Source: Echinicola arenosa | GTDB taxonomy: Bacteria; Bacteroidota; Bacteroidia; Cytophagales; Cyclobacteriaceae | Reading direction: 5' to 3' | Assembly: GCF_014841125.1 (NCBI RefSeq) | Contig: NZ_JACYTQ010000001.1 | Span: 992,001-1,056,000 of the forward strand | Length of the DNA stretch: 64,000 nt | Part shown: in pieces, positions 50,768 through 63,541 of the stretch | Layout of the letters: every line of letters begins with the position of its first letter | Position numbering within the stretch: the first letter of the stretch is position 1 | Notes under the pieces: generated by a model | Told to the model about the DNA's origin: nothing | Database searches by the model: none | Seen by the model: only the letters and a program-made list of their open reading frames with translations | Position numbers and translations under genes: made by a program

Positions 50768-51835
50768 TTATTTTAAAATCTGTTCTGCCAACCAGTCACC
50801 AACTTCTGACGTTTTATACGCCTTCTCTCCTTCTGCAATGTCCTCTGTCACTATTCCTTCAGCTAAAGAAAGGTTAACTGCATCAGAAATGGCTTTTGCT
50901 TCTTCTTTCAAATCAAAAGCATATTCGAACATCATCGCAGCAGAAAGCACAGTTGCCAATGGATTGGCGATATCTTTGCCGGCCGCTTGAGGGTAAGAAC
51001 CATGAATCGGTTCAAACAATTTGACATCTGTACCTAATGAGGCAGAAGGCATCAATCCCATAGAGCCCGAGATAACACTGGCCTCATCTGTCAAAATATC
51101 ACCGAACAAGTTTTCGGTGATCAACACATCATAAGCCTTAGGCCATTGGATCAACCTCATCGCTACTGCATCCACAAATTCATACTCTACTTTTACATCT
51201 GGATACTCTGGTTCCAATTCCTGCACTGTTTCTCTCCAAAGTCTGGAAGTAGCCAAAACGTTGGCTTTATCCACACAGGTAAGCAACTTTCTTCTTTTCT
51301 GAGCAAATTCAAAGCCCATTCTTGCTAGTCGAGTGATCTCTTCTTTGGTGTAAACATTGGTATCAAAAGCCTTGGTACCTTGCTCATTTCTACCTCTTGG
51401 CTCACCAAAATAAATACCTCCTGTGAGCTCTCTCAAAAACACAAAATCAGTACCTTCAATACGGTCCTTCTTTAAAGGAGATTTATGGATCAATGAAGGA
51501 AAAGTAAAAGTAGGTCGAACGTTAGAGAACAGCCCCAATTTCTTTCTCATAGCCAATAAACCCTGCTCAGGTCTAACTTTAGCCTTGGGGTCATTATCAT
51601 ACTTTGGGTCACCTATTGCTCCAAAAAGAACTGCATCAGATTGCACACAAACTTCATGTGTTTCATCTGGGTATGGGTTACCAGTAGCATCAATAGCTGC
51701 CGCTCCCACAATGGCTTCTTTAAAAGTTATGGTATGGCCAAATTTCTTTCCTACGGCTTTGACCACTTTCACAGCCTGATCGATTACTTCAGGGCCAATG
51801 CCATCACCTGGCAGTAGCGCTAAATTCATTTCCAT
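50768..51835 (-). CDS. leuB: 3-isopropylmalate dehydrogenase
   Basis: NAD-dependent oxidative decarboxylation of 3-isopropylmalate; LeuB enzymes also take the 3-methylmalate formed from citramalate. The 355 residues include [52 protein letters not shown], the metal-site [20 protein letters not shown] and [19 protein letters not shown]. It is the last gene of the operon. Its start overlaps the end of cimA by 32 nt. Confidence 0.97.
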
Positions 51836-53387
51836 ATAAGTTCGTATTTTCTGTTTTTCCGATATTCATTTGTTCAATGATGTTTAGCATTTTTTCCGTG
51901 GCCATCATTGCCGCCACAGTCTGGTCACTATCAAGACCTTTGGTCTTGATAATCCTTCCATAGTCCCAAGTGATTACAGTTTCTACAAAAGCATCTGTTT
52001 TTCCTCCAGGAGGAATACTTACACTAAAATCCGTCAACTTGGGCAAAGTTTTATTGAGTGACTTGTATATTTTATGCAATGCCAGCATAAAAGAATCAAA
52101 CTGCCCATTTCCTGAAGCATGTGCTTCATAAAATTGGTCTTTCACCTTTAGCCTTAATTGCACCGTTGGCTTAAGTCCTTTGGAATGGGTCATATGATAT
52201 CCTTCAATGAGGATATCTTTTTTGATACTGTTGTTCTGTAAAACATCCGAAATGATATAAGGCAAATCCTCCGTTGTAACCCTTTCTTTGCGATCGCCTA
52301 ATTCAATGATCTTTTGGGTCACTTTGCTAAGCTCCTCAGGCTCTAGGGAAATCCCTAGCTCCATCAGATTTTTTAGAATATTGGCTTTACCTGATGTTTT
52401 CCCTAATGCATACTTCCTTGTTCTTCCGAAACGTTCTGGAAGCAAATCATTGTAGTAAAGGTTTTTCTTGTTGTCTCCATCAGCATGAATTCCTGCTGTT
52501 TGGGTAAAGACATTCTCACCGACTACTGGTTTGTTTGAGGGTATATGAAGTCCAGAAAACTGCTCTACCAACTTGCTGATCCGATAGATTTTGTTCTCCT
52601 GAACATTCAACTTAAAATCTGTGAAATCCGTGATACTGGCTACGATACTCTCCAAGGGTGCATTTCCAGCTCGTTCGCCCAAGCCATTGATGGTACTGTG
52701 AATTCCGGAAATCCCATGATTTACAGCTTCCAATACATTGGCTACAGAGAGATCGTAATCATTGTGCGCATGAAAGTCAAAATGGATATCTGGATATTTA
52801 CTGGTAACCTCCTTCACAAAAGTCCTTACTTCTTCAGGCTTTAGAAGTCCTAAAGTATCAGGAAGCATAATTCGCTTCACCTCTTGACTCACCAAAAAGT
52901 CAATTAAACTTATGGTGTAATCCTTGGACTTACGCATCCCACTACTCCAATCTTCCAAGTACACATTTACCGCTATTCCTTTTGATGTAGCACATTCAAT
53001 GCATTTGGCAATATCAGCAAAGTGCTGCTCAGGAGTTTTCTTTAGTTGGTAGGTAAGGTGATTGAGTGACCCTTTGGTCAGAAGGTTCAATACTTTAGCT
53101 CCCGACAAAACCAACCAGTCCACTGAGGCGGGCGTGTCCACAAAGCCCAAAACCTCCACCCTATCCAAGTATCCTTTTTCAGAAGCCCAATGCGTGATTT
53201 TCTTCACCCCTTCCAGCTCCCCCTCAGAAACCCTGGCAGATGCTACCTCTATCCTGTCTACCTTCAATTCCTCCAATAGCAGCTTGGCTATCTGAAGCTT
53301 TTCAGAAGGCAAAAAGGATACACCTGAGGTCTGTTCACCATCCCTCAGTGTGGTATCCATGATTTCTATTTTCTTATGAAGACGCAT
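51804..53387 (-). CDS. cimA: Probable (R)-citramalate synthase (LeuA/CimA family)
   Basis: Condenses acetyl-CoA with pyruvate (citramalate) or 2-oxoisovalerate (isopropylmalate). The 527 residues have the DRE-TIM barrel: [38 protein letters not shown] (metal HxH) and [16 protein letters not shown]-terminal regulatory domain follows (about 390-515, [19 protein letters not shown]). Stretches such as [29 protein letters not shown] and [18 protein letters not shown] closely resemble, from memory, the characterised Leptospira citramalate synthase. They resemble E. coli LeuA much less. Substrate choice remains inference. No other leuA is in the operon. Confidence 0.78.
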
Positions 53388-53400
53388 GTCTCTTTAGTTA

Positions 53401-53991
53401 TTATTTGCTTGCTTCAAAAGCAACGATATCTTCTTTGATGTTCAATAGATAATCGATATCATCAAAACCATTTTTCATATTTTCCTTTTTGTAGGAATTG
53501 ATATCAAACGATTCTGATCTACCAGTGCTCAACAACGTGATGGTCTGTGTACTGATATCCACTTCTACTTCCGTGCTCGGATCTTTCTCTACTTCGGCAA
53601 AGATTTCATCCAAAAATTCAGGAGTCACCGTTACAGGTAGTATTCCAATGTTCAGAGAGTTATTTTTGAAGATATCCGCAAAGAAGCTAGAAACCACACA
53701 TCTGAAGCCATAGTCATAGATGGCCCAAGCAGCATGCTCCCTACTTGATCCTGAACCGAAGTTCTTTCCTGCCACCAACACCTTACCAGAGTAAGTAGCG
53801 TCATTAAGCACGAAATCCGCCTTAGGATTTCCTTCACTATCATATCTCCAATCCCTGAAAAGATTATCTCCAAAACCTTCTCTTTCTGTTGCCTTTAAGA
53901 ATCTAGCTGGAATTATCTGATCCGTGTCCACATTTTCTGTTGGCAAAGGAACCACGGTGCTTTTTAATATATTAAACTTATCGTAAGCCAT
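53401..53991 (-). CDS. leuD: 3-isopropylmalate dehydratase small subunit
   Basis: Partner of LeuC in isomerising 2- to 3-isopropylmalate (and citramalate to 3-methylmalate). The 196 residues include LPTENVDTDQIIPARFLK and the substrate loop NFGSGSSREHAAWAIYDYGF. FADIFKNNSLNIGILPV and a longer C-terminal tail (MKNGFDDIDYLLNIKEDIVA) are of the E. coli LeuD type. It sits 20 nt after leuC. Confidence 0.96.
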   Translation of the reverse strand: MAYDKFNILKSTVVPLPTENVDTDQIIPARFLKATEREGFGDNLFRDWRYDSEGNPKADFVLNDATYSGKVLVAGKNFGSGSSREHAAWAIYDYGFRCVVSSFFADIFKNNSLNIGILPVTVTPEFLDEIFAEVEKDPSTEVEVDISTQTITLLSTGRSESFDINSYKKENMKNGFDDIDYLLNIKEDIVAFEASK

Positions 53992-54011: not shown

Positions 54012-55409
54012 TTATACTTCGCGTGGATCGGTTACTTCACCAGTAATGGCTACTGCTGCCACAGTCAAAGGAGAAGCCAAAAGGGTTCTTGCTCCAGGCC
54101 CTTGACGACCTTCGAAGTTCCTATTGGAAGTAGATACTGCATACTTTCCAGCTGGAATCTTATCATCATTCATGGCCAGACAAGCAGAACAACCCGGCTG
54201 TCTTAGTTTAAACCCAGCTTCTTCCAAAACGTCTACTAGACCTTCTGCGATGGCCTGCTTTTCCACCTCTCTAGAACCAGGAACTATCCAAGCCGTAATA
54301 TTATCCGCCTTCTTTTTGCCTTTCACAAACTCAGCTACAGCGCGGATATCTTCAATTCTTCCGTTAGTACAGCTACCAACGAAAACATAATCAATTTTCT
54401 TTCCTTTGATTGGCTCTCCTGGTGCAAATCCCATATAATCAAGTGATTTGATATAGGATTTCTTATTGCTACCTTCCATACCTTCAGTAGTAGGGATATT
54501 GTCCTTGATCTTGATCCCCATACCAGGATTGGTGCCATAGGTAATCATTGGTTCAATATCAGCAGCATCATATGCATACTCAATATCAAACTCAGCACCT
54601 TCATCGGTTTTGAGCGTCTTCCAGTAAGCTAAAGCTTTGTCCCAATCTTCACCTTTGGGAGCATGCTCTTTTCCTTTAAGGTAATTAAATGTCGTTTCAT
54701 CAGGAGCAATCAAACCTCCACGAGCACCCATTTCAATACTCATATTACAGATGGTCATCCTTGCCTCCATGCTTAAGCTTTGAATAGCCGAACCGGCATA
54801 TTCAATGAAGTAACCAGTACCACCACTGGCAGAGATTTTAGAGATGATATAAAGAATGATGTCTTTGGAAGTAACACCTTTGTGCAGCTCGCCATCCACA
54901 GTAATTCTCATACGCTTAGGCTTGGACTGCATGATACACTGTGATGCAAATACCATTTCAACTTCGGAAGTACCGATACCGAAAGCAATCGCTCCAAATG
55001 CACCGTGTGTAGAAGTGTGGCTATCTCCACATACAATGGTCATACCAGGCTGGGTGATACCCAATTCCGGTCCAATTACGTGAACAATACCGTGATGATC
55101 TGTACCCAGATCGTGTAATTCAATGCCGTATTTCTTACAGTTTTCACGCAGCTTTTCTACCTGCATGCGAGAAAGTTTATCTTTGATAGTCTTGTCCTGA
55201 TCGATGGTGGGAACGTTGTGATCAGGGGTGGCTACCGTTCTCTCGGGGAAGAGAACTTTGTTGCCTCTTTTTTCTAGGTTAAGGAAGGCGACCGGGCTGG
55301 TTACTTCATGGATAAAGTGTTTATCTATGAAAAACACATCAGGTCCATCAGGGACTGACTTCACTACGTGAGCGTCCCATACTTTGTCAAATAATGTTTT
55401 CTTTTCCAT
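54012..55409 (-). CDS. leuC: 3-isopropylmalate dehydratase large subunit
   Basis: Aconitase-family [4Fe-4S] enzyme with about 465 residues. Cluster cysteines appear in [20 protein letters not shown] and [40 protein letters not shown] and [19 protein letters not shown] are typical. An upstream in-frame TTG (55424) gives MITEA..., but ATG 55409 ([18 protein letters not shown]) is the normal start. Its mRNA follows a structured intercistronic region after ilvC. Confidence 0.96.
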
Positions 55410-55442
55410 CGCTTCTGTTATCAATCATCTTAAACTTCAGAA

Positions 55443-55578: not shown

Positions 55579-56622
55579 TTAATTGTTCTCTGGTCTCAGT
55601 TTACGAACAGTAGCACCAGCTTGCCACATTTCAGACTCTCTCAGCTCCTTCAACTCTTCTTCCAGCTTCACTCTGTAGTCAGACTTACTGTTAGACTCGA
55701 TAGATTTAGCAGCTTCCTTACCATCTTTAACGCTTTTGTAAAGATCTTCGAATACTGGTTTAGACGCATCTCTGAACGGCTTCCACCAATCCAAAGCACC
55801 TCTTTGTGCAGTAGTAGAACAGTTAGCATACATCCAGTCCATACCGTTCTCAGCAACCAATGGCATCAAACTCTGAGTCAATTCTTCAACAGTCTCGTTG
55901 AAAGCCTCAGAAGGAGAGTGACCGTTTTCTCTCAATACTTCGTACTGAGCTGCAAAGATTCCTTGGATAGCTCCCATCAAGGTACCTCTCTCACCAGTTA
56001 AGTCAGAAGTCACTTCTCTGTAGAAATCAGTTTCAAATAAGTAACCAGAACCTACTCCGATACCTAAAGCAATCACTCTTTCTCTAGCTTTACCAGTAGC
56101 ATCTTGGTAGATCGCGAAAGAAGAGTTCAAACCTCTACCTTCTACGAACATTCTTCTTAAAGAAGTACCAGACCCCTTAGGGGCTACCAAAATCACATCA
56201 ACATCCTTTGGAGGAATGATGCCAGTTTGGTCATTGTAAGTCACGCCGAAACCGTGAGAGAAATACAGAGCCTTCCCTGGAGAAAGGTGCTTCTTTACAG
56301 TTGGCCAAAGGGCGATCTGACCTGCATCAGAAAGCAAGAACTGAAGGATAGTACCTTTTTCACAGGCTTCTTCCAATTCAAAAAGCGTCTCACCAGGTAC
56401 CCAACCGTCAGCTACTGCTTTGTCCCAAGTTTTGGAACCTTTACGCTGACCAACGATTACATTAAAACCATTATCTTTCAAGTTAAGTGCTTGACCTGGA
56501 CCTTGTACACCATAGCCCAATACAGCAATCACTTCGTCTTTAAGTACTTCTCTGGCTTTCTCAAGAGGAAATTCTTCTCTTGTTACTACATCTTCTTCAA
56601 CTGTTCCGAATTTCAGTTTCAT
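55579..56622 (-). CDS. ilvC: Ketol-acid reductoisomerase
   Basis: NADPH-dependent isomeroreductase of valine and isoleucine synthesis. The 347 residues place it in the short class I. The nucleotide loop is VLGYGVQGPGQALNLKDNG, with VGQRKGSKTWDKA after it. KGSGTSLRRMFVEGRGLNSS follows, as does the metal/substrate region LTGERGTLMGAIQGIFAAQYEVLRENG, with conserved Glu residues in EAFNETVEEL. It lies 11 nt after ilvN. Confidence 0.96.
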   Translation of the reverse strand: MKLKFGTVEEDVVTREEFPLEKAREVLKDEVIAVLGYGVQGPGQALNLKDNGFNVIVGQRKGSKTWDKAVADGWVPGETLFELEEACEKGTILQFLLSDAGQIALWPTVKKHLSPGKALYFSHGFGVTYNDQTGIIPPKDVDVILVAPKGSGTSLRRMFVEGRGLNSSFAIYQDATGKARERVIALGIGVGSGYLFETDFYREVTSDLTGERGTLMGAIQGIFAAQYEVLRENGHSPSEAFNETVEELTQSLMPLVAENGMDWMYANCSTTAQRGALDWWKPFRDASKPVFEDLYKSVKDGKEAAKSIESNSKSDYRVKLEEELKELRESEMWQAGATVRKLRPENN

Positions 56623-56633
56623 TGTTTCTAATT

Positions 56634-57137
56634 TTAATTATTTAAGTATTGTTCAATTGTTCCCATTGGTTTGGCCACCGCCACTCTGCCTGATCTGGCA
56701 AATTCAAGGATACTGAAATCCTTCAAAATTTCCAGCAGCGCTTTAGTGTCTTCTTTGTGGCCTGTCATTTCGATCACTACAAACTCTTTCTCTGCTGAAA
56801 TGATCCTTGCATTGTATTGCCTAATGACTTTTTCCAAGCCCGGATCAAGACTGCTGATAGGAATTTTGTAAAGTGCAATCTCTTGGTAAACGACCTCGTC
56901 GTCCTTATAATAAAAGGACTTGATGACGTCAATTATTTTTTCAGTTTGCTTTACAATCTGAATGACCTGCTCTTCAGTCGTGGTCACTTCTATGGTGATC
57001 CTGTGCACACCATCTTCCTTACTTTCAGAAGCAGTAAGGGCATCTATATTCACACCTCTTCTCGTAAAAATCAAAGTTACTCGATTAAGAATACCTATGA
57101 AGTTTTCCGTAAAAAGGGATATTGTATAACGATTCAT
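56634..57137 (-). CDS. ilvN: Acetolactate synthase small (regulatory) subunit
   Basis: ACT-domain regulatory subunit that confers feedback control by valine on IlvB. The 167 residues show ISLFTENFIGILNRVTLIFTRRGVNIDALTA in the first ACT domain and a second domain from about residue 80 (KVIRQYNARIISAEKEFVVIEMTG). It follows ilvB by ten bases and is probably coupled to it. Confidence 0.95.
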   Translation of the reverse strand: MNRYTISLFTENFIGILNRVTLIFTRRGVNIDALTASESKEDGVHRITIEVTTTEEQVIQIVKQTEKIIDVIKSFYYKDDEVVYQEIALYKIPISSLDPGLEKVIRQYNARIISAEKEFVVIEMTGHKEDTKALLEILKDFSILEFARSGRVAVAKPMGTIEQYLNN

Positions 57138-57147
57138 AAAATGTGGC

Positions 57148-58842
57148 TTAGCTTAATCTCACTTCTTCTACTGAACATCCTGTAGGAATCATAGGGAACA
57201 CATTGTCCTCTTTTTCTACGACTACCTCAAGAAAATAAGGACCGTCATGCACCATCATTTCTGCTACAGTATCTCTAAGATTATCCCTTTCCGTTACCTT
57301 AGAAGCTTTCATATTGTAAGCTTCGGCAATCTTGACGAAATCAGGATTATCAAGTTCTGTAAACGAATAGCGCTTATCAAAGAACAACTGCTGCCATTGT
57401 CTTACCATACCTAAGAAATTGTTGTTCAACAAAACAATCTTTACAGGACTTTGAGTTTGCATAATGGTACCAAATTCCTGAATAGTCATCTGTATACCTC
57501 CATCACCGACTACACAAATCACTTGGCGATTTAGATCAGCCAATTGTGCCCCCAATGCAGCAGGCAAACTAAAGCCCATCGTTCCCAAACCTCCGGAAGT
57601 CACCTGAGTTCTAGTAGTTTTATACTTAAAGTATCTCCATGCTATCATTTGATGCTGTCCAACGTCAGTTACCAAAATGGCATCATCCTTTTTGAAATCG
57701 TTCACATAGCGGATTACCTCACCCATAGTCAGGCCAGTTTTAGTAGGCAATAAGTCCAGGGAAACTACCGCACTTTTCTCTTTCTCTTCCAACTTTCTAA
57801 ACTCACCCAACCAGTCCTGATGAGACTTCTCTTTCAGTTTTTCAGTCAGCAAAGGTAAACTTTCCTTGCAATCGCCAAGTATAGACACTTCGCACTTTAC
57901 ATTCTTGTTAATCTCCGCATTGTCTAGCTCCAAGTGAATCACCTTAGCTTGTTTGGCATAACGTTTCAGGTCTCCGGTTACCCGATCATCAAAACGCATT
58001 CCTATTGCAATCAAGACATCACATTTGTTGGTCAGCATATTTGGGGCATAGTTACCATGCATCCCCAATTTCCCTACATACTGTGGATGATCTTCATCCA
58101 AAGCTCCCGATCCTAATAAGGTACAAGCTGCAGGAATACCACTTTTGTCTAAGAATGCTTTGAGCTCTTCTTCTGCTTTACCTATTACTACCCCTTGGCC
58201 ATAGAGCACATAGGGTCTTTTAGCTTGGTTGATTATTTCTGCTGCTTTCGCAACGCTATTTTCATTGACCTTTGGATAAGGACGATAAGACCTGATCCCC
58301 AGACAAGGCACATAATTAAACTCTCCTAAGGCATTTTGAGCATCCTTGGTAATATCTATCAATACAGGCCCCGGTCTCCCTGATCTAGCAATATGAAAAC
58401 CTTTGGCTATAGCCGGTGCTATGTCTTCTACCCTTCTTACTTGGATGTTCCATTTAGTTCCTGGCATGGAAAAACCCACCACGTCAGTTTCCTGAAATGC
58501 ATCCGTTCCCAGCAAAGGCGAAGCCACTTGTCCCGTAATGCAGACCAGAGGAGTACTATCAATCATGGCATCTGCTATCCCTGTGATCAGGTTAGTAGCG
58601 CCTGGCCCTGAAGTAGCCATACAGACTCCGACTTTTCCAGAGACTCGCGCATAACCTTGCGCTGCATGGATTGCTCCCTGTTCATGTCTTGTCAGTACAT
58701 GCTTGATTTGGTCCGCGTAATCATAGAGTGCATCATAAACTGGCATGATGGCACCTCCTGGATAACCGAAAATATATTCGGAATTTTCAGCTACCAAAGA
58801 TTTGATTACGATCTCAGCTCCTCTGATTCTCGAATCTTTCAT
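57148..58842 (-). CDS. ilvB: Acetolactate synthase large subunit
   Basis: ThDP/FAD/Mg enzyme that makes acetolactate or acetohydroxybutyrate. The 564 residues have the catalytic Glu in LTRHEQGAIHAAQGYARVSG and FAD-region motifs VLYGQGVVIGKAEEE. The ThDP motif GDGGIQMTIQEFGTIM...LNNNFLGMVRQW is intact. It lies 55 nt downstream of ilvD, the only sizeable gap in the ilv half. Confidence 0.97.
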   Translation of the reverse strand: MKDSRIRGAEIVIKSLVAENSEYIFGYPGGAIMPVYDALYDYADQIKHVLTRHEQGAIHAAQGYARVSGKVGVCMATSGPGATNLITGIADAMIDSTPLVCITGQVASPLLGTDAFQETDVVGFSMPGTKWNIQVRRVEDIAPAIAKGFHIARSGRPGPVLIDITKDAQNALGEFNYVPCLGIRSYRPYPKVNENSVAKAAEIINQAKRPYVLYGQGVVIGKAEEELKAFLDKSGIPAACTLLGSGALDEDHPQYVGKLGMHGNYAPNMLTNKCDVLIAIGMRFDDRVTGDLKRYAKQAKVIHLELDNAEINKNVKCEVSILGDCKESLPLLTEKLKEKSHQDWLGEFRKLEEKEKSAVVSLDLLPTKTGLTMGEVIRYVNDFKKDDAILVTDVGQHQMIAWRYFKYKTTRTQVTSGGLGTMGFSLPAALGAQLADLNRQVICVVGDGGIQMTIQEFGTIMQTQSPVKIVLLNNNFLGMVRQWQQLFFDKRYSFTELDNPDFVKIAEAYNMKASKVTERDNLRDTVAEMMVHDGPYFLEVVVEKEDNVFPMIPTGCSVEEVRLS

Positions 58843-58897: not shown

Positions 58898-60580
58898 TTA
58901 CCCCTTGTCTGTAACACAACCCTCTGAAGCAGTAGACACCAATTGACTGTATTTCTTTAAAGTACCTTGAAGATGGCTTAAATCCTTATTCTTCCAGCTT
59001 TTCTTTCTTTCGGCAAACACTTCATCACTTACGTCCACGTTAAGTTCTAAAGTCTCTGCATCAATAGTGATCGTATCTCCATCCTGGATCAAACCAATAG
59101 GTCCTCCCATATATGCCTCAGGAGTGACGTGCCCGACTACAAAACCATGTGTACCGCCGGAAAACCTACCATCTGTAATCAAAGCCACATCTGAACCAAG
59201 TCCAGCACCAATGATAATGGCTGTGGGTTTTAACATTTCTGGCATCCCTGGCCCACCTTTTGGCCCAACAAAACGAATAACTACAACATCCCCCTTCTGC
59301 ACTTTCTTATTTTTCATAGCCTCATTGGCCTCAACTTCACTGTTGAACACCCTGGCTGTGCCTGTAAATGATTTACCTTCTTTACCAGAAATTTTGGCAA
59401 CCGCCCCTTCTGGTGCAAGGTTTCCATGAAGCACACACAAGTGTCCTGTTTCCTTGATTGGATTATCTAATGGATGGATCACACTCTCTTTGGATGTCTT
59501 CACTGGCTCGATACCTTCTAAGTTTTCTGCCATTGTTTTACCAGTAACAGTCATGCAATCTCCATGAAGTAACCCTTCATTCAAGAAGTACTTCAAGAAG
59601 GCAGGCAGCCCCCCCATATCGTAAAGGTCTTCCATCATAAACTTACCACTTGGCTTAAAATCACCCAAAACTGGTGTTTCAGCATTAATTTGCTTAAAAT
59701 CTTCCAAAGTAAAATCTACACCAGCAGTTTTAGCAATGGCCAATATGTGTAAGGCGGCATTGGTACTTCCCCCAAGAGCTACAGTTACCCTCACAGCATT
59801 CTCTATACTCTTCTTGGTTACAATATCCTTTGGCTTTATATCTAGAGCCAAGAGCTGCTTGATATATTTCCCCATGTTCTTACATTCCTCACGCTTCTCT
59901 TTAGAAGTCGCAGGGTAAGAAGAACTAAATGGCAGTGAAAGCCCCATGGCCTCAATAGCTGAGGACATGGTATTAGCTGTATACATACCACCACACGCCC
60001 CTGCACCAGGACATGCATTTTTGATCACACCCATATAATCCTCATCCGATATCTGGCCGTTGATCTTTTTGCCATATGCCTCAAATGCAGAAACAATATT
60101 CAATTTTTCTCCTTTGTAATGTCCAGAGCGAATAGTGCCACCAAAAACCATGATGCTTGGACGATTCACCCTTAACATTCCCATCACAACACCCGGCATA
60201 TTCTTGTCACAACCAGGAATAGTAACCACTCCATCAAATGAGTGTCCTAAAATAAATGACTCGACAGAATCAGCAATTACTTCTCTTGAAGGAAGGCTAT
60301 AACTCATCCCTGCAGTACCCATAGAAATACCATCGGAAATGCCGATGGTATTGAATATAAATCCTGCTAAATCAGACTTGTTGGTCGAAGCTTTGATTTC
60401 TTCGGCGAAACTGTTCAAGTGCATGTTACATGGATTACTTTCATAACCACAACTAGCGACCCCTACAAAAGGCTGTTTCATCTTTTCATCACTCAATCCT
60501 GTAGCGTAAAGCATGGCCATCCCTGCCGGATGCTCCTGGTTATCGCTTATTTCCCAACTATATTTTTTTAAATCACTCAT
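58898..60580 (-). CDS. ilvD: Dihydroxyacid dehydratase
   Basis: Iron-sulfur enzyme that dehydrates dihydroxy-acids to the 2-oxoacids of valine and isoleucine. The 560 residues carry cluster cysteines in [31 protein letters not shown] and [18 protein letters not shown]. The C-terminal [22 protein letters not shown] is also present. It is the first structural gene of the operon, so it sits directly behind the attenuator. Its ATG is 26 bases after the U-run. Confidence 0.97.
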
Positions 60581-60605
60581 TATATATCTAATTCTGTTAT
60601 CGCCT

Positions 60606-60640
60606 TATAAAAAAAAGTGCCTCATGGTATGAGGCACTTT
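60606..60640 (-). terminator. Attenuator terminator before ilvD (segments 3:4)
   Basis: Minus strand AAAGTGCCTCAT-ACC-ATGAGGCACTTT (60640-60614) is a perfect 12-bp stem with a 3-base loop. It runs straight into eight U counting the stem end (60613-60606 plus TTT of the stem). It lies inside the ilv leader, not after a gene. Its 5' arm AGTGCCTCAT can alternatively pair with ATGAGGCGCT at 60679-60670. Confidence 0.93.
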
Positions 60641-60669
60641 ATTGCTTTATGGATGTTCTACAATAGTCT

Positions 60670-60696
60670 AGCGCCTCATTTACAATTGAAAATGAG
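60670..60696 (-). promoter_or_regulatory. Antiterminator/pause segments 1 and 2 of the ilv attenuator
   Basis: Segment 1, CTCATTT (60696-60690), pairs perfectly with segment 2, AAATGAG (60681-60675), across an 8-base loop. Segment 2 extended, ATGAGGCGCT (60679-60670), can instead pair with segment 3 (60638-60629) over ten positions with one G·U. Segment 2 contains the leader peptide stop codon, so a ribosome finishing the peptide covers it. Confidence 0.85.
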
Positions 60697-60735
60697 AATA
60701 ATAACTAGGTTAATGACGCTGACTATTCTTGACAT
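60676..60735 (-). CDS. Leader peptide of the ilv-leu operon
   Basis: A 19-residue ORF reading MSRIVSVINLVIILIFNCK then TGA. Five Ile, three Val and two Leu make up 10 of 19 residues, the amino acids made by the operon. A ribosome slowed on the GTT ATT ATT CTC ATT run (codons 11-15) would hold segment 1, leaving segment 2 free to pair with segment 3 and block the terminator. The ORF starts about 45 nt into the predicted transcript. It is not in the conventional ilvL family by sequence, which is normal because leader peptides are not conserved. Confidence 0.88.
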   Translation of the reverse strand: MSRIVSVINLVIILIFNCK

Positions 60736-60786
60736 GCTTTTAAAGTGTTTAGTGGTATCCTTTTCTGTTTAATTTTAAATGCTTAA

Positions 60787-60817
60787 CAAAAGTAAAACCC
60801 TAATTTGACACTTACAA
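60787..60817 (-). promoter_or_regulatory. Promoter of the ilv-leu operon
   Basis: Minus strand TTG (60817-60815), 20 bases, TACTTTTG (60794-60787). This matches the Bacteroidota -33/-7 pattern with the spacer one base over ideal. It predicts an RNA start near 60780 and a leader of about 200 nt. Between this and ispE (60818-61106) the DNA is AT-rich with poly-A/T tracts and no gene. Confidence 0.75.
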
Positions 60818-61130
60818 TATTTTATTTCTTTTTTTAAAATGAATCAAAAATTAAACTATTGTCTATCCTGAAATCAACACGAGATTTTAGTGGATTTTTT
60901 ATGCAATACCCTCTTTTATGTTTCATAAAAAAATTATTTATCTAAATTTCAGAATTTTCTTCTGATTTTATTTTTTTTTAAATTTTTGTTAAAAAAAACA
61001 GGCTAAACAATGACTAAAACCAACTTTTTAGACATTTTTTAAAACAACCAACAAACATTAACACAAGAATCCTTAAAAAGAACCAAAATTAATACGCCTA
61101 TTTTAATAGTTTTGCATCAATACTTCTTTT

Positions 61131-61946
61131 ATGATTTCTATGATACAATTCCCAAACGCAAAAATAAATTTAGGACTTTCCATTATTGAAAAAAGAAAGG
61201 ATGGCTATCACGAAATCGAAACCTGTATGTTTCCGGTTCCTTTGTGCGACGCCCTTGAAATCACCTTATCAAATAAGACAAAATTCACAGGTACTGGACT
61301 GACCATTCCTGGCAAAGAGAAAGACAACCTCATTTTAAAGGCACTCAAACTTCTCAGAAAAGACTTCAATGAACTTCCCAATATTGATATCCATTTACAC
61401 AAAGCTATTCCGATGGGGGCCGGGCTAGGTGGTGGGTCTGCTGATGCAGCTTTTGCATTATCTATGATGAATAACCTATTTGACCTTCACCTTGAAGATT
61501 GGTTTTTGGAAGATTACGCGGCAGAACTTGGCAGTGACTGTCCATTTTTTATTGAAAACAAACCCAAAATCGCTAAAGGAAGAGGTGAATTATTGGAAGA
61601 AGTAAATCTTGACCTCAATGGATGCTGGATTGCTTTAGTTAATCCTCAAATCCACATTGGCACCAAAGAGGCCTATGAAGGAGTGCACCCTCAACTCCCA
61701 CAATATGAATTAAAAGAAACGTTGGCTGATCGCTCCTTATGGAAAGAAAGACTGGTCAATGATTTTGAGAGCAGCATATTCAACAAGTATCCTGAAATTG
61801 CGGAAATTAAGGCCCAACTTTATCAACAAGGAGCTTTCTATGCCGCCATGTCAGGATCTGGATCAACGGTATTTGGCTTATTTGATAATGAGCCTGAACA
61901 AAGTAGTTGGCCAAAAGAGTATTTTAGATTTGAGGGAGAGCTATAG
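61131..61946 (+). CDS. ispE: 4-diphosphocytidyl-2-C-methyl-D-erythritol kinase
   Basis: GHMP kinase of the MEP isoprenoid pathway. The 271 residues begin IQFPNAKINLGLSIIEKRKDGYHEIET (the catalytic Lys/His region). The ATP loop PMGAGLGGGSADAAFAL, ELGSDCPFFIENKPKIAKGRGE and the C-terminal AAMSGSGSTVFGLF follow. Two ATGs (61131, 61140) are possible; the second is closer to the usual start. A -7 box TAGTTTTG at 61107-61114 lies upstream without a clear -33 partner. Confidence 0.96.
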   Translation: MISMIQFPNAKINLGLSIIEKRKDGYHEIETCMFPVPLCDALEITLSNKTKFTGTGLTIPGKEKDNLILKALKLLRKDFNELPNIDIHLHKAIPMGAGLGGGSADAAFALSMMNNLFDLHLEDWFLEDYAAELGSDCPFFIENKPKIAKGRGELLEEVNLDLNGCWIALVNPQIHIGTKEAYEGVHPQLPQYELKETLADRSLWKERLVNDFESSIFNKYPEIAEIKAQLYQQGAFYAAMSGSGSTVFGLFDNEPEQSSWPKEYFRFEGEL

Positions 61947-62398: not shown

Positions 62399-63541
62399 AT
62401 GAACAGGATAGACTATCTGGATAAATATAGGTTCTTCACCGTTACATTTGCTCTTATTTCACATGCAATTCTAGCTCTTAACTTAGAGGAAGTAATTGGA
62501 CAAGAAGGTATTAGCAGTATCAGTTTTATAACGAGATCCGCTACTCCATCGCTGATTATACTTTTTGGTATAATGGCTGAATTCATTTATTATAACAGAT
62601 ATAAATCAAAAGGAAATGCCATTTTCTCTAAACTTATTTACAGGTCATTCCTTTGTTATTTAGTATTTGTTCTTCTTTCAATAGTAACCTTTTTAGTAGG
62701 AAAAAAGAGTATATCCGGACTTATGGGAAGTGCTCTATTACTAAAATCAACTTCATACTCCAACATTTTCGTCATGTATTTTTTCTGGCTTCTTTTATGT
62801 ATCCCTATCCTAAAGCTTAGACACAAATTAGGTTTTTGGGGGTTGCTAGGTTTAGTTGGAGCTATTTGGACAATCGACTACTTTATTATAGCAAAAACAG
62901 TTGAACTTTCTTCTCCCTTTAATTTTATAGGAGGAGTTTTATTAGGCATAGGAAGGGACTGGGGGCCATCTATATTTCATGGCATCACCTTAATCGTTTG
63001 TGGAATGCTATTTGCTGATTTTCTGTTGAACAAAGTTTCAACACCCTCAACAAAAACCATTATTGCAATTATTATGATCGGCTCAATCGTCGCCACCTCA
63101 ATTACAATTTTTAATATCGGTTTTGTTGAATACGTGGAAAACATTGTTGACCCAAGGGCTTATCGATTTAAAAACAACATCTTATATTACCTTTATGGAC
63201 TAAATATAACTTGCCTTATCATTATTTTTTCTTATTTATCCAATTTATTAATAAAAGGGAAACTAAGTAATAATATCAATTTCCTGGGGTCATCTACTTT
63301 TTCTTACTTTGTGATTGGAAACATGATCCTTATCATCTTCCCTACCATTCAAATAGCCTCTGTTTGGGAGGCTTTAATGTTTGTTTTTGTCTTTTTAATA
63401 GCCACCAGTTTCCTGACATTTGTTTGGGAAAAAAAGCTGCAACACTTAAACATGGTACAATCAATAAACATGATGACAAAGAATTCCTCTCAAACAGTTT
63501 GGAACACTGTAAACAAAATTAAAAGGAGGAAATTAAGCTAG
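62399..63541 (+). CDS. Polytopic membrane protein, acyltransferase-3-like
   Basis: A 380-residue protein with about ten membrane segments. The opening MNRIDYLDKYRFFTVTFALISHAIL resembles the start of membrane acyltransferases (acyltransferase_3/OpgC type), where a His follows a helix start and binds the acyl donor. Other support is weak: there is no clear second Arg motif, so the function is tentative. The last 25 residues are basic and soluble (NTVNKIKRRKLS). It is a single gene in unusually AT-rich DNA with its own promoter. This could indicate acquisition or just a surface-modification locus. Confidence 0.6.
   Translation: MNRIDYLDKYRFFTVTFALISHAILALNLEEVIGQEGISSISFITRSATPSLIILFGIMAEFIYYNRYKSKGNAIFSKLIYRSFLCYLVFVLLSIVTFLVGKKSISGLMGSALLLKSTSYSNIFVMYFFWLLLCIPILKLRHKLGFWGLLGLVGAIWTIDYFIIAKTVELSSPFNFIGGVLLGIGRDWGPSIFHGITLIVCGMLFADFLLNKVSTPSTKTIIAIIMIGSIVATSITIFNIGFVEYVENIVDPRAYRFKNNILYYLYGLNITCLIIIFSYLSNLLIKGKLSNNINFLGSSTFSYFVIGNMILIIFPTIQIASVWEALMFVFVFLIATSFLTFVWEKKLQHLNMVQSINMMTKNSSQTVWNTVNKIKRRKLS

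Follow-up and report, generated by a model that had tools for sequence, protein, structure and literature searches.

The DNA ahead of ilvD carries an element that we read, with a probability of roughly 0.93, as a ribosome-mediated transcription attenuator of the ilv-leu gene cluster. This element is located on the minus strand of the window, the 64,000-nucleotide stretch of DNA that was analyzed, between the divergent genes ispE (61131–61946, plus strand) and ilvD (58898–60580). It comprises promoter-like boxes, a short leader ORF and RNA segments with two mutually exclusive pairings, the antiterminator 2:3 and the terminator 3:4, segment 3 being common to both. The same reading had been proposed from the sequence alone, and the leader ORFs and pairings of relatives argue in its favor.

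Leader segments and the gene cluster

The nearest IlvD proteins in named records are those of Echinicola salinicaeni, E. shivajiensis and E. pacifica (90–92% identity), and the lineage of the window is accordingly Echinicola or a close relative within the Cyclobacteriaceae. These neighbors presumably place it in the order Cytophagales, in agreement with the lineage named by the sequence-only reading. Ten further genomes among those used for comparison belong to the same genus as the window genome. The parts of the leader are as follows.

60787–60817, minus strand: putative Bacteroidota-type promoter, with a −33 TTG (60817–60815) and a −7 box TACTTTTG (60794–60787), recognized from sequence only
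60676–60735, minus strand: leader peptide ORF of 19 codons, MSRIVSVINLVIILIFNCK followed by a stop, with counterparts in relatives
60717–60727, minus strand: outer 5' arm of segment 1, AATAGTC (60727–60721) and AGCG (60720–60717), within the first leader codons (pairing)
60690–60696, minus strand: inner segment 1, CTCATTT, at about leader codons 14–16 (pairing)
60670–60679, minus strand: segment 2, ATGAGGCGCT, overlapping the leader stop TGA (60678–60676); for 48 sequences, RNAalifold gives the 2:3 pairing as consensus
60662–60668, minus strand: outer 3' arm of the 1:2 stem, GACTATT (pairing)
60629–60640, minus strand: segment 3, AAAGTGCCTCAT, the 3' strand of the antiterminator as well as the 5' strand of the terminator (pairing, terminator scan)
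60609–60625, minus strand: segment 4, ATGAGGCACTTT (60625–60614), and a run of 8 T (60616–60609), forming an intrinsic terminator (pairing, terminator scan)

The boxes are in place where a −33/−7 promoter had been suggested. TATTGT and TAnnTTTG-like boxes also occur in the upstream regions of relatives, as judged by eye and uncounted, and TAnnTTTG is given as the promoter consensus of Flavobacterium psychrophilum (PMC9723704). The leader ORF was confirmed at 60735–60676, and 10/19 of its residues are Ile, Val or Leu, the number claimed before. Ahead of its ATG (60735), a Shine-Dalgarno-like sequence is absent.

Segments 1 and 2 pair through CTCATTT and AAATGAG, the 7-bp hairpin of the sequence-only reading, but that reading had overlooked the outer part of the stem. 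There, AATAGTC (60727–60721) pairs with GACTATT (60668–60662) and AGCG (60720–60717) with CGCT (60673–60670), joining the first codons of the leader ORF to the sequence past its stop codon. The complete 1:2 hairpin contains 18 pairs (7 + 4 outer, 7 inner) and reaches −15.5 kcal/mol, versus −6.4 for the inner part alone. The alternative 2:3 pairing, ATGAGGCGCT with AGTGCCTCAT, was found as described, with 10 positions and one G-U, and so was the overlap of segment 2 with the leader stop. Base-by-base inspection likewise bore out the 12-bp stem of the 3:4 terminator, AAAGTGCCTCAT-ACC-ATGAGGCACTTT. The T run stands, but the end of the run (60609) is separated from the ATG of ilvD (60580) by 28 nt, and not by the 26 nt given earlier.

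The cluster behind the leader consists of eight genes, and their NCBIfam matches agree with the ilv-leu operon that had been named.

58898–60580, minus strand: ilvD, dihydroxy-acid dehydratase, first gene of the cluster (TIGR00110, above cut-off)
57148–58842, minus strand: ilvB, acetolactate synthase large subunit (TIGR00118, above cut-off)
56634–57137, minus strand: ilvN, acetolactate synthase small subunit (TIGR00119, above cut-off)
55579–56622, minus strand: ilvC, ketol-acid reductoisomerase (TIGR00465, above cut-off)
54012–55424, minus strand: leuC, 3-isopropylmalate dehydratase large subunit (TIGR00170, above cut-off)
53401–53991, minus strand: leuD, 3-isopropylmalate dehydratase small subunit (TIGR00171, above cut-off)
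51804–53387, minus strand: citramalate/2-isopropylmalate synthase-like enzyme (best match NF042433 CimA, 682.8 bits, cut-off 950)
50768–51835, minus strand: leuB, 3-isopropylmalate dehydrogenase, overlapping the synthase-like gene (TIGR00169, above cut-off)

The best match of the synthase-like enzyme is a Leptospira-type CimA, a citramalate synthase. Because its score is below the cut-off, this substrate assignment is tentative. Isoleucine may thus be made through citramalate in the window genome; the cluster covers valine and leucine and, with a citramalate-forming synthase, would also include the entry to isoleucine. Elsewhere in the window, a plus-strand ORF of 380 aa (62399–63541) is without an NCBIfam match at E values up to 0.001.

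Chance expectation, conservation and spacing

The fold of the 186-nt leader has a z-score of −3.99, and 0/200 dinucleotide shuffles were as stable. A terminator scan of positions 60500–61200 detected the 3:4 stem, listed once per strand, with a shuffle average of 0.2 sites. ORFs of 12–25 aa that start with ATG and contain at least 10 Ile, Leu or Val arose in 94 of 20,000 dinucleotide shuffles of 260 nt; taken alone, the leader ORF is an event of about 0.5% in this AT-rich DNA. A leader together with a properly placed terminator was present in 70/140 real ilvD upstreams, a set that includes a few duplicates (L043–L045 = L003, L007 and L009; L166 = L106; L181 = L136), versus 0/1400 shuffled ilvD upstreams. 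The combination was also absent from the his/trp control upstreams (0/39; L057–L095, 39 of 49 loci, with L096–L105 unused).

The alignment comprises 48 loci (47 distinct, the window included) whose IlvD identity is about 72% or more. Duplicates and near relatives were excluded from it (L043–L045, L047, L049–L051, L053–L056, L107 and L166), and all of these show the leader and the terminator. The relatives keep the leader ORF, as the attenuator reading had anticipated; the peptides differ from genus to genus, yet are mostly rich in Ile, Val and Leu. In three close relatives (L108, L112 and L113) the leader is less clearly of this composition, or is without a called terminator. Segments 2, 3 and 4 are retained throughout the 48-sequence alignment, and the unconstrained RNAalifold consensus corresponds to the antiterminator 2:3. 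Standard pairs fill 75.9% (1:2), 94.0% (2:3) and 96.9% (3:4) of the alignment cells; with the partners slid by 1–3 columns, the paired cells amount to at most 48.0%, 51.1% and 59.8%, respectively.

The sequence-only reading had looked to relatives for compensatory changes in all three pairings. The pairings are kept, whereas true compensatory changes are few, and the covariation support for them is therefore only moderate. Changes on both sides affect 8/18 pairs in 1:2, 2/10 in 2:3 and 1/11 in 3:4, these counts referring to sequences and not to evolutionary events. By two of the five measures, namely pairs with both-side changes and further pair types, 2:3 and 3:4 show no excess over shuffles, and further pair types show none in 1:2. 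One position of segments 2, 3 and 4 is G-C-G in most rows. In 12/48 rows, from Cyclobacterium and neighboring genera, segments 2 and 3 carry A-U instead of this G-C, and in 11 of these rows segment 4 reads A as well. This triple change, which keeps both rival pairings, is probably a single event.

More distant ilvD loci were searched with a strict detector. It found the element in 14/51 loci of the same family (none in 37/51) and in 11/27 loci from other families of the phylum (none in 16/27), the 51 and 27 loci being the fetched subset of the matches listed. The elements from other families come from all nine fetched loci of one family (f29) and from 2/6 of another (f14). The distant elements share the architecture with the window, with unrelated RNA sequence and different peptides, such as MIFSIVIIVVVLVIITPTTG and MLSVIISLVIIQIIGIPYHPGKAL. 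Their 2:3 duplexes outscore at least 173/200 shuffles in 25/25 cases and at least 194/200 in 21/25; the 1:2 pairing outscores 190/200 shuffles in only 8/25.

The distance from the last Ile, Val or Leu codon to the start of segment 2 has a median of 10 nt (sd 3.7, range 0–18) in 71 distinct elements, while the distance from the stop codon to segment 2 runs from −18 to +8 (sd 5.9) in the same set. One element of 72 was dropped for its weak duplex energy. Because segment 2 was located from its strongest duplex with segment 3, the positions of its ends are subject to some error, and the four elements at spacing 0 seem to reflect bulged extensions. As the elements share ancestry to different extents, the difference in spread does not constitute a formal test. 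Segment 2 starts within the ORF in family f29 and mostly past the stop in the Cyclobacterium group. A ribosome covers about 10 nt downstream of its A site, as seen in toeprinting, and the spacing of about 10 nt between the last control codon and segment 2 matches about one such footprint.

The choice of control codons is also biased. In the close group (28 distinct leaders), the valine codon is GTC in 72/87 cases in the leaders versus 155/1039 in ilvD of the same loci; in the distant group (26 distinct leaders), the counts are 52/103 versus 38/463. The leucine codons CTC and CTA make up 39/73 in leaders of the close group versus 175/1210 in ilvD, a preference that is absent from the distant group (12/54 versus 108/609, p = 0.46). 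About 150 ilvD bases were available for each of L116–L165, so the codon control of the distant group is thin. The GTC bias of the close group may be partly structural, because GTC is partly inside the 1:2 stem. A plain rare-codon reading of leader codon bias is a matter on which caution is urged in PMC1183508.

Ribosome position and rival explanations

In the attenuator reading, we infer from the features described above where transcription starts, that the ORF is translated, and that termination and a response to starvation occur. RNA polymerase would start near 60780 and produce the leader RNA, on which a ribosome would initiate the 19-codon ORF. When charged Ile-, Val- or Leu-tRNA is scarce, the ribosome would stall at any of the ten control codons, which lie within codons 4–15. 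Stalled there, it would open segment 1 and leave segment 2 free, and 2:3 would form before segment 4 is made, with transcription of ilvD as the outcome. With ample amino acids, a ribosome at the stop codon would hide segment 2, and 3:4 would form and terminate transcription around 60609. In the event that no ribosome is present, the long 1:2 hairpin would form and termination would be expected too.

The effect of the ribosome was simulated with an in-silico mask that hides the RNA to 10 nt past the A-site codon, the remainder being folded with its end before segment 4. For the window leader, the probability of 2:3 is 0.94–0.96 with the A site at codons 1–15, 0.79 at codon 16, 0.49 at codon 17 and 0.00 at codons 18–20. 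Codon 15 is the last Ile codon, and 2:3 is lost just beyond it; the model thus sides with the earlier claim that ribosome position decides the pairing. The switch point falls 0–3 codons past the last Ile, Val or Leu codon in 62/72 distinct elements. A ribosome at the stop brings 2:3 below half in 62/72 elements and fails to do so in 10/72.

The folding also bears on how readthrough would come about. In the full-length RNA at equilibrium, 3:4 prevails at every ribosome position (P 0.93–0.96). Because 3:4 always wins at equilibrium, antitermination must be kinetic in this model, and readthrough must rest on the persistence of 2:3 while the polymerase crosses the T run. For the ribosome-free RNA, scoring of the ten 2:3 pairs gives probabilities of 0.90 (inner), 1.00 (middle) and 0.99 (outer) for 1:2 and 0.00 for 2:3. 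A wider measure, in which all upstream partners of segment 3 count and the RNA begins 25 nt before the ATG, brings the ribosome-free 2:3 below half in only 24/72 elements. Scored in this way, the window element stays slightly over half (5.8 of 11.1), and most of 2:3 is retained without a ribosome in several Echinicola rows (L003, L004 and L007). For the window, shut-off in the absence of translation is therefore predicted only when the narrow measure is used, and it is not robust.

Other explanations of the leader were weighed against the attenuator. A structured and conserved 5' leader that carries a terminator and precedes a biosynthetic operon would in general also fit a ligand-binding riboswitch, a T-box or a protein-bound leader in which the short ORF is incidental, a reading that we consider very unlikely. 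At gathering thresholds, the sole match of the Rfam covariance models in the window is a tRNA, the ilvD leader being unmatched, and Rfam models of leaders, riboswitches and T-boxes gave no match at E values up to 1 in L001 (the ilvD leader of the window), L017 and L027. Invariant columns are few outside the helices and the T run of the 48 aligned sequences. Moreover, in other families the RNA sequence has changed while the Ile/Val/Leu-rich ORF and its spacing are kept, which an aptamer would not account for. Riboswitch and T-box were rejected on these grounds, being without Rfam matches and without conserved sequence beyond the helices. Bacterial operon leaders can also carry terminators of other genes, and the 3:4 stem could in principle be fortuitous or serve another role, for example that of terminating transcripts from an upstream gene, with no regulatory leader involved. 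This explanation was rejected because the upstream neighbor, ispE, is divergent and on the opposite strand; the retention of all three segments throughout the alignment and the complete absence of the leader-terminator combination from shuffled upstreams make it extremely improbable.

The peptide itself could also be the sensor. In nascent-peptide arrest, the leader peptide would stall the ribosome by its own sequence when a free amino acid is bound, and not through a shortage of charged tRNA. The Echinicola peptide is nearly constant, as such a mechanism would have it, and its variable sites fall 5/6/9 on codon positions 1/2/3 (20/60 sites, 11 sequences), a weak excess at the third position. 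This constancy may, however, stem from the 1:2 stem that overlaps the ORF. Across genera it is the composition that the peptides have in common and not residues at fixed positions, as illustrated by MFVLVSLVVLIVIII as well as MIFSIVIIVVVLVIITPTTG and MLSVIISLVIIQIIGIPYHPGKAL. An arrest peptide is disfavored by this variation between genera, and we give it a very slim chance.

Known attenuators and other amino acid leaders

By those of its features that can be tested on sequence, the element belongs to the ribosome-mediated leader-peptide attenuators. These were first found in the trp operon of E. coli and the his operon of Salmonella, and the enterobacterial ilvGMEDA, ilvBN and leu operons are listed among them (PMC1183508). 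The ilvD leader resembles the enterobacterial ilv and leu attenuators in its short ORF rich in the amino acids of the operon, its alternative antiterminator and terminator, and its biased control codons. It differs from them in having no sequence match to any Rfam leader family, no Shine-Dalgarno-like sequence, a putative Bacteroidota −33/−7 promoter, and a single attenuator before a joint ilv and leu cluster.

Attenuation of this type has already been proposed in Bacteroidota, and this ilvD copy is outside the catalogued RNA families. A 2019 paper (PMC6414381) draws a parallel between the E. coli trp leader and the Bacteroid-trp RNA motif (RF01692; Weinberg et al. 2010, PMC2864571), which shares with the ilvD leader the logic of leader-peptide attenuation in this phylum. 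Unlike the ilvD leader, the motif serves trp operons, and its model misses the ilvD leader (L001) at E values up to 1. The transcriptome of F. psychrophilum (2021) is described as giving strong clues of leader-peptide attenuation before amino acid biosynthesis operons (PMC9723704). Phylum and proposed type of mechanism are the same as here, and a transcript map is available there; in contrast to the present lineage, F. psychrophilum belongs to the Flavobacteriaceae, and the section on conserved structured elements names pheA and hisG among them, and not ilvD. In Corynebacterium, the ilvB-II uORF motif encodes a leader peptide enriched in branched-chain residues that is thought to attenuate the ilv operon (PMC10272879); it differs from the ilvD leader in phylum, in its ilvBNC genes and in being described as a two-stem motif. 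According to the authors of a 2010 paper, Proteobacteria and Actinobacteria were, as far as they knew, the only groups in which leader-peptide systems had been demonstrated; the paper adds his leaders of bacilli. Titles and the beginnings of abstracts revealed no publication on a Cytophagales ilvD leader; Lopatovskaya et al. 2010 (Mol Biol 44:128) may contain Bacteroidetes cases.

Candidate leaders also precede other amino acid operons of the same genome. Upstream of trpE in the window's own genome (L082), the leader MKQNHTQYWWWHTGLLDREEQLAIA, which contains Trp-Trp-Trp, is accompanied by a 12-bp terminator, and leaders with three consecutive Trp residues plus terminators are present in 11/11 genomes of the genus (L079, L080, L082–L085, L087 and L090–L093). 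The Rfam Bacteroid-trp model gave no match at E values up to 1 in the trp leaders of L082, L086 and L088. A match to the Bacteroidales small SRP RNA, above its gathering score, lies within 1.5 kb of trpE (L082, 3930–4025).

Upstream of hisG (L066 in the own genome; relatives L064–L075), a His-rich leader ORF ends in VHHFHHSS before its stop, and upstream of thrA (L202 in the own genome; relatives L197–L206) a Thr/Ile-rich leader ORF ends in SIITRTFFMTTITG. The stop codons of both are located in a short hairpin, of 7 bp at his and of about 5 bp plus a wobble pair at thr, the latter below the length of the hairpin scan. Similar unpaired motifs, TTTACATATCGCCCC and CTATTATATTGCCGC, follow the two stop hairpins. 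A pattern covering both motifs has two perfect matches in the genome, which are these two sites; with one mismatch, there are 21 matches versus 15 for the reversed control. No intrinsic terminator was called at the hisG and thrA leaders of the own genome, and weak calls of 6–7 bp were obtained in L074 and L201. These leaders are possibly a second type, Rho-dependent or translational.

Translation in Bacteroidota starts largely without Shine-Dalgarno sequences. Their absence is also mentioned in PMC9723704. A broader proposal, which we put forward tentatively and with more doubt than confidence, is that leader-peptide attenuation may be a phylum-wide and largely uncatalogued control of amino acid operons in Bacteroidota, working without Shine-Dalgarno sequences and needing close coupling of transcription and translation. 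Selection would then hold the ruler of about one ribosome footprint rather than the RNA sequence, and a second, terminator-free type with a stop-codon hairpin and a shared single-stranded motif would operate at hisG and thrA.

The attenuator reading provides the branched-chain amino acid operon of a lineage that has been little studied with a likely mechanism of control and a likely inducing signal. If it is true, the ribosome and RNA polymerase would travel close together in Bacteroidota, and the spacing rule could help to find such leaders where the RNA sequence diverges.
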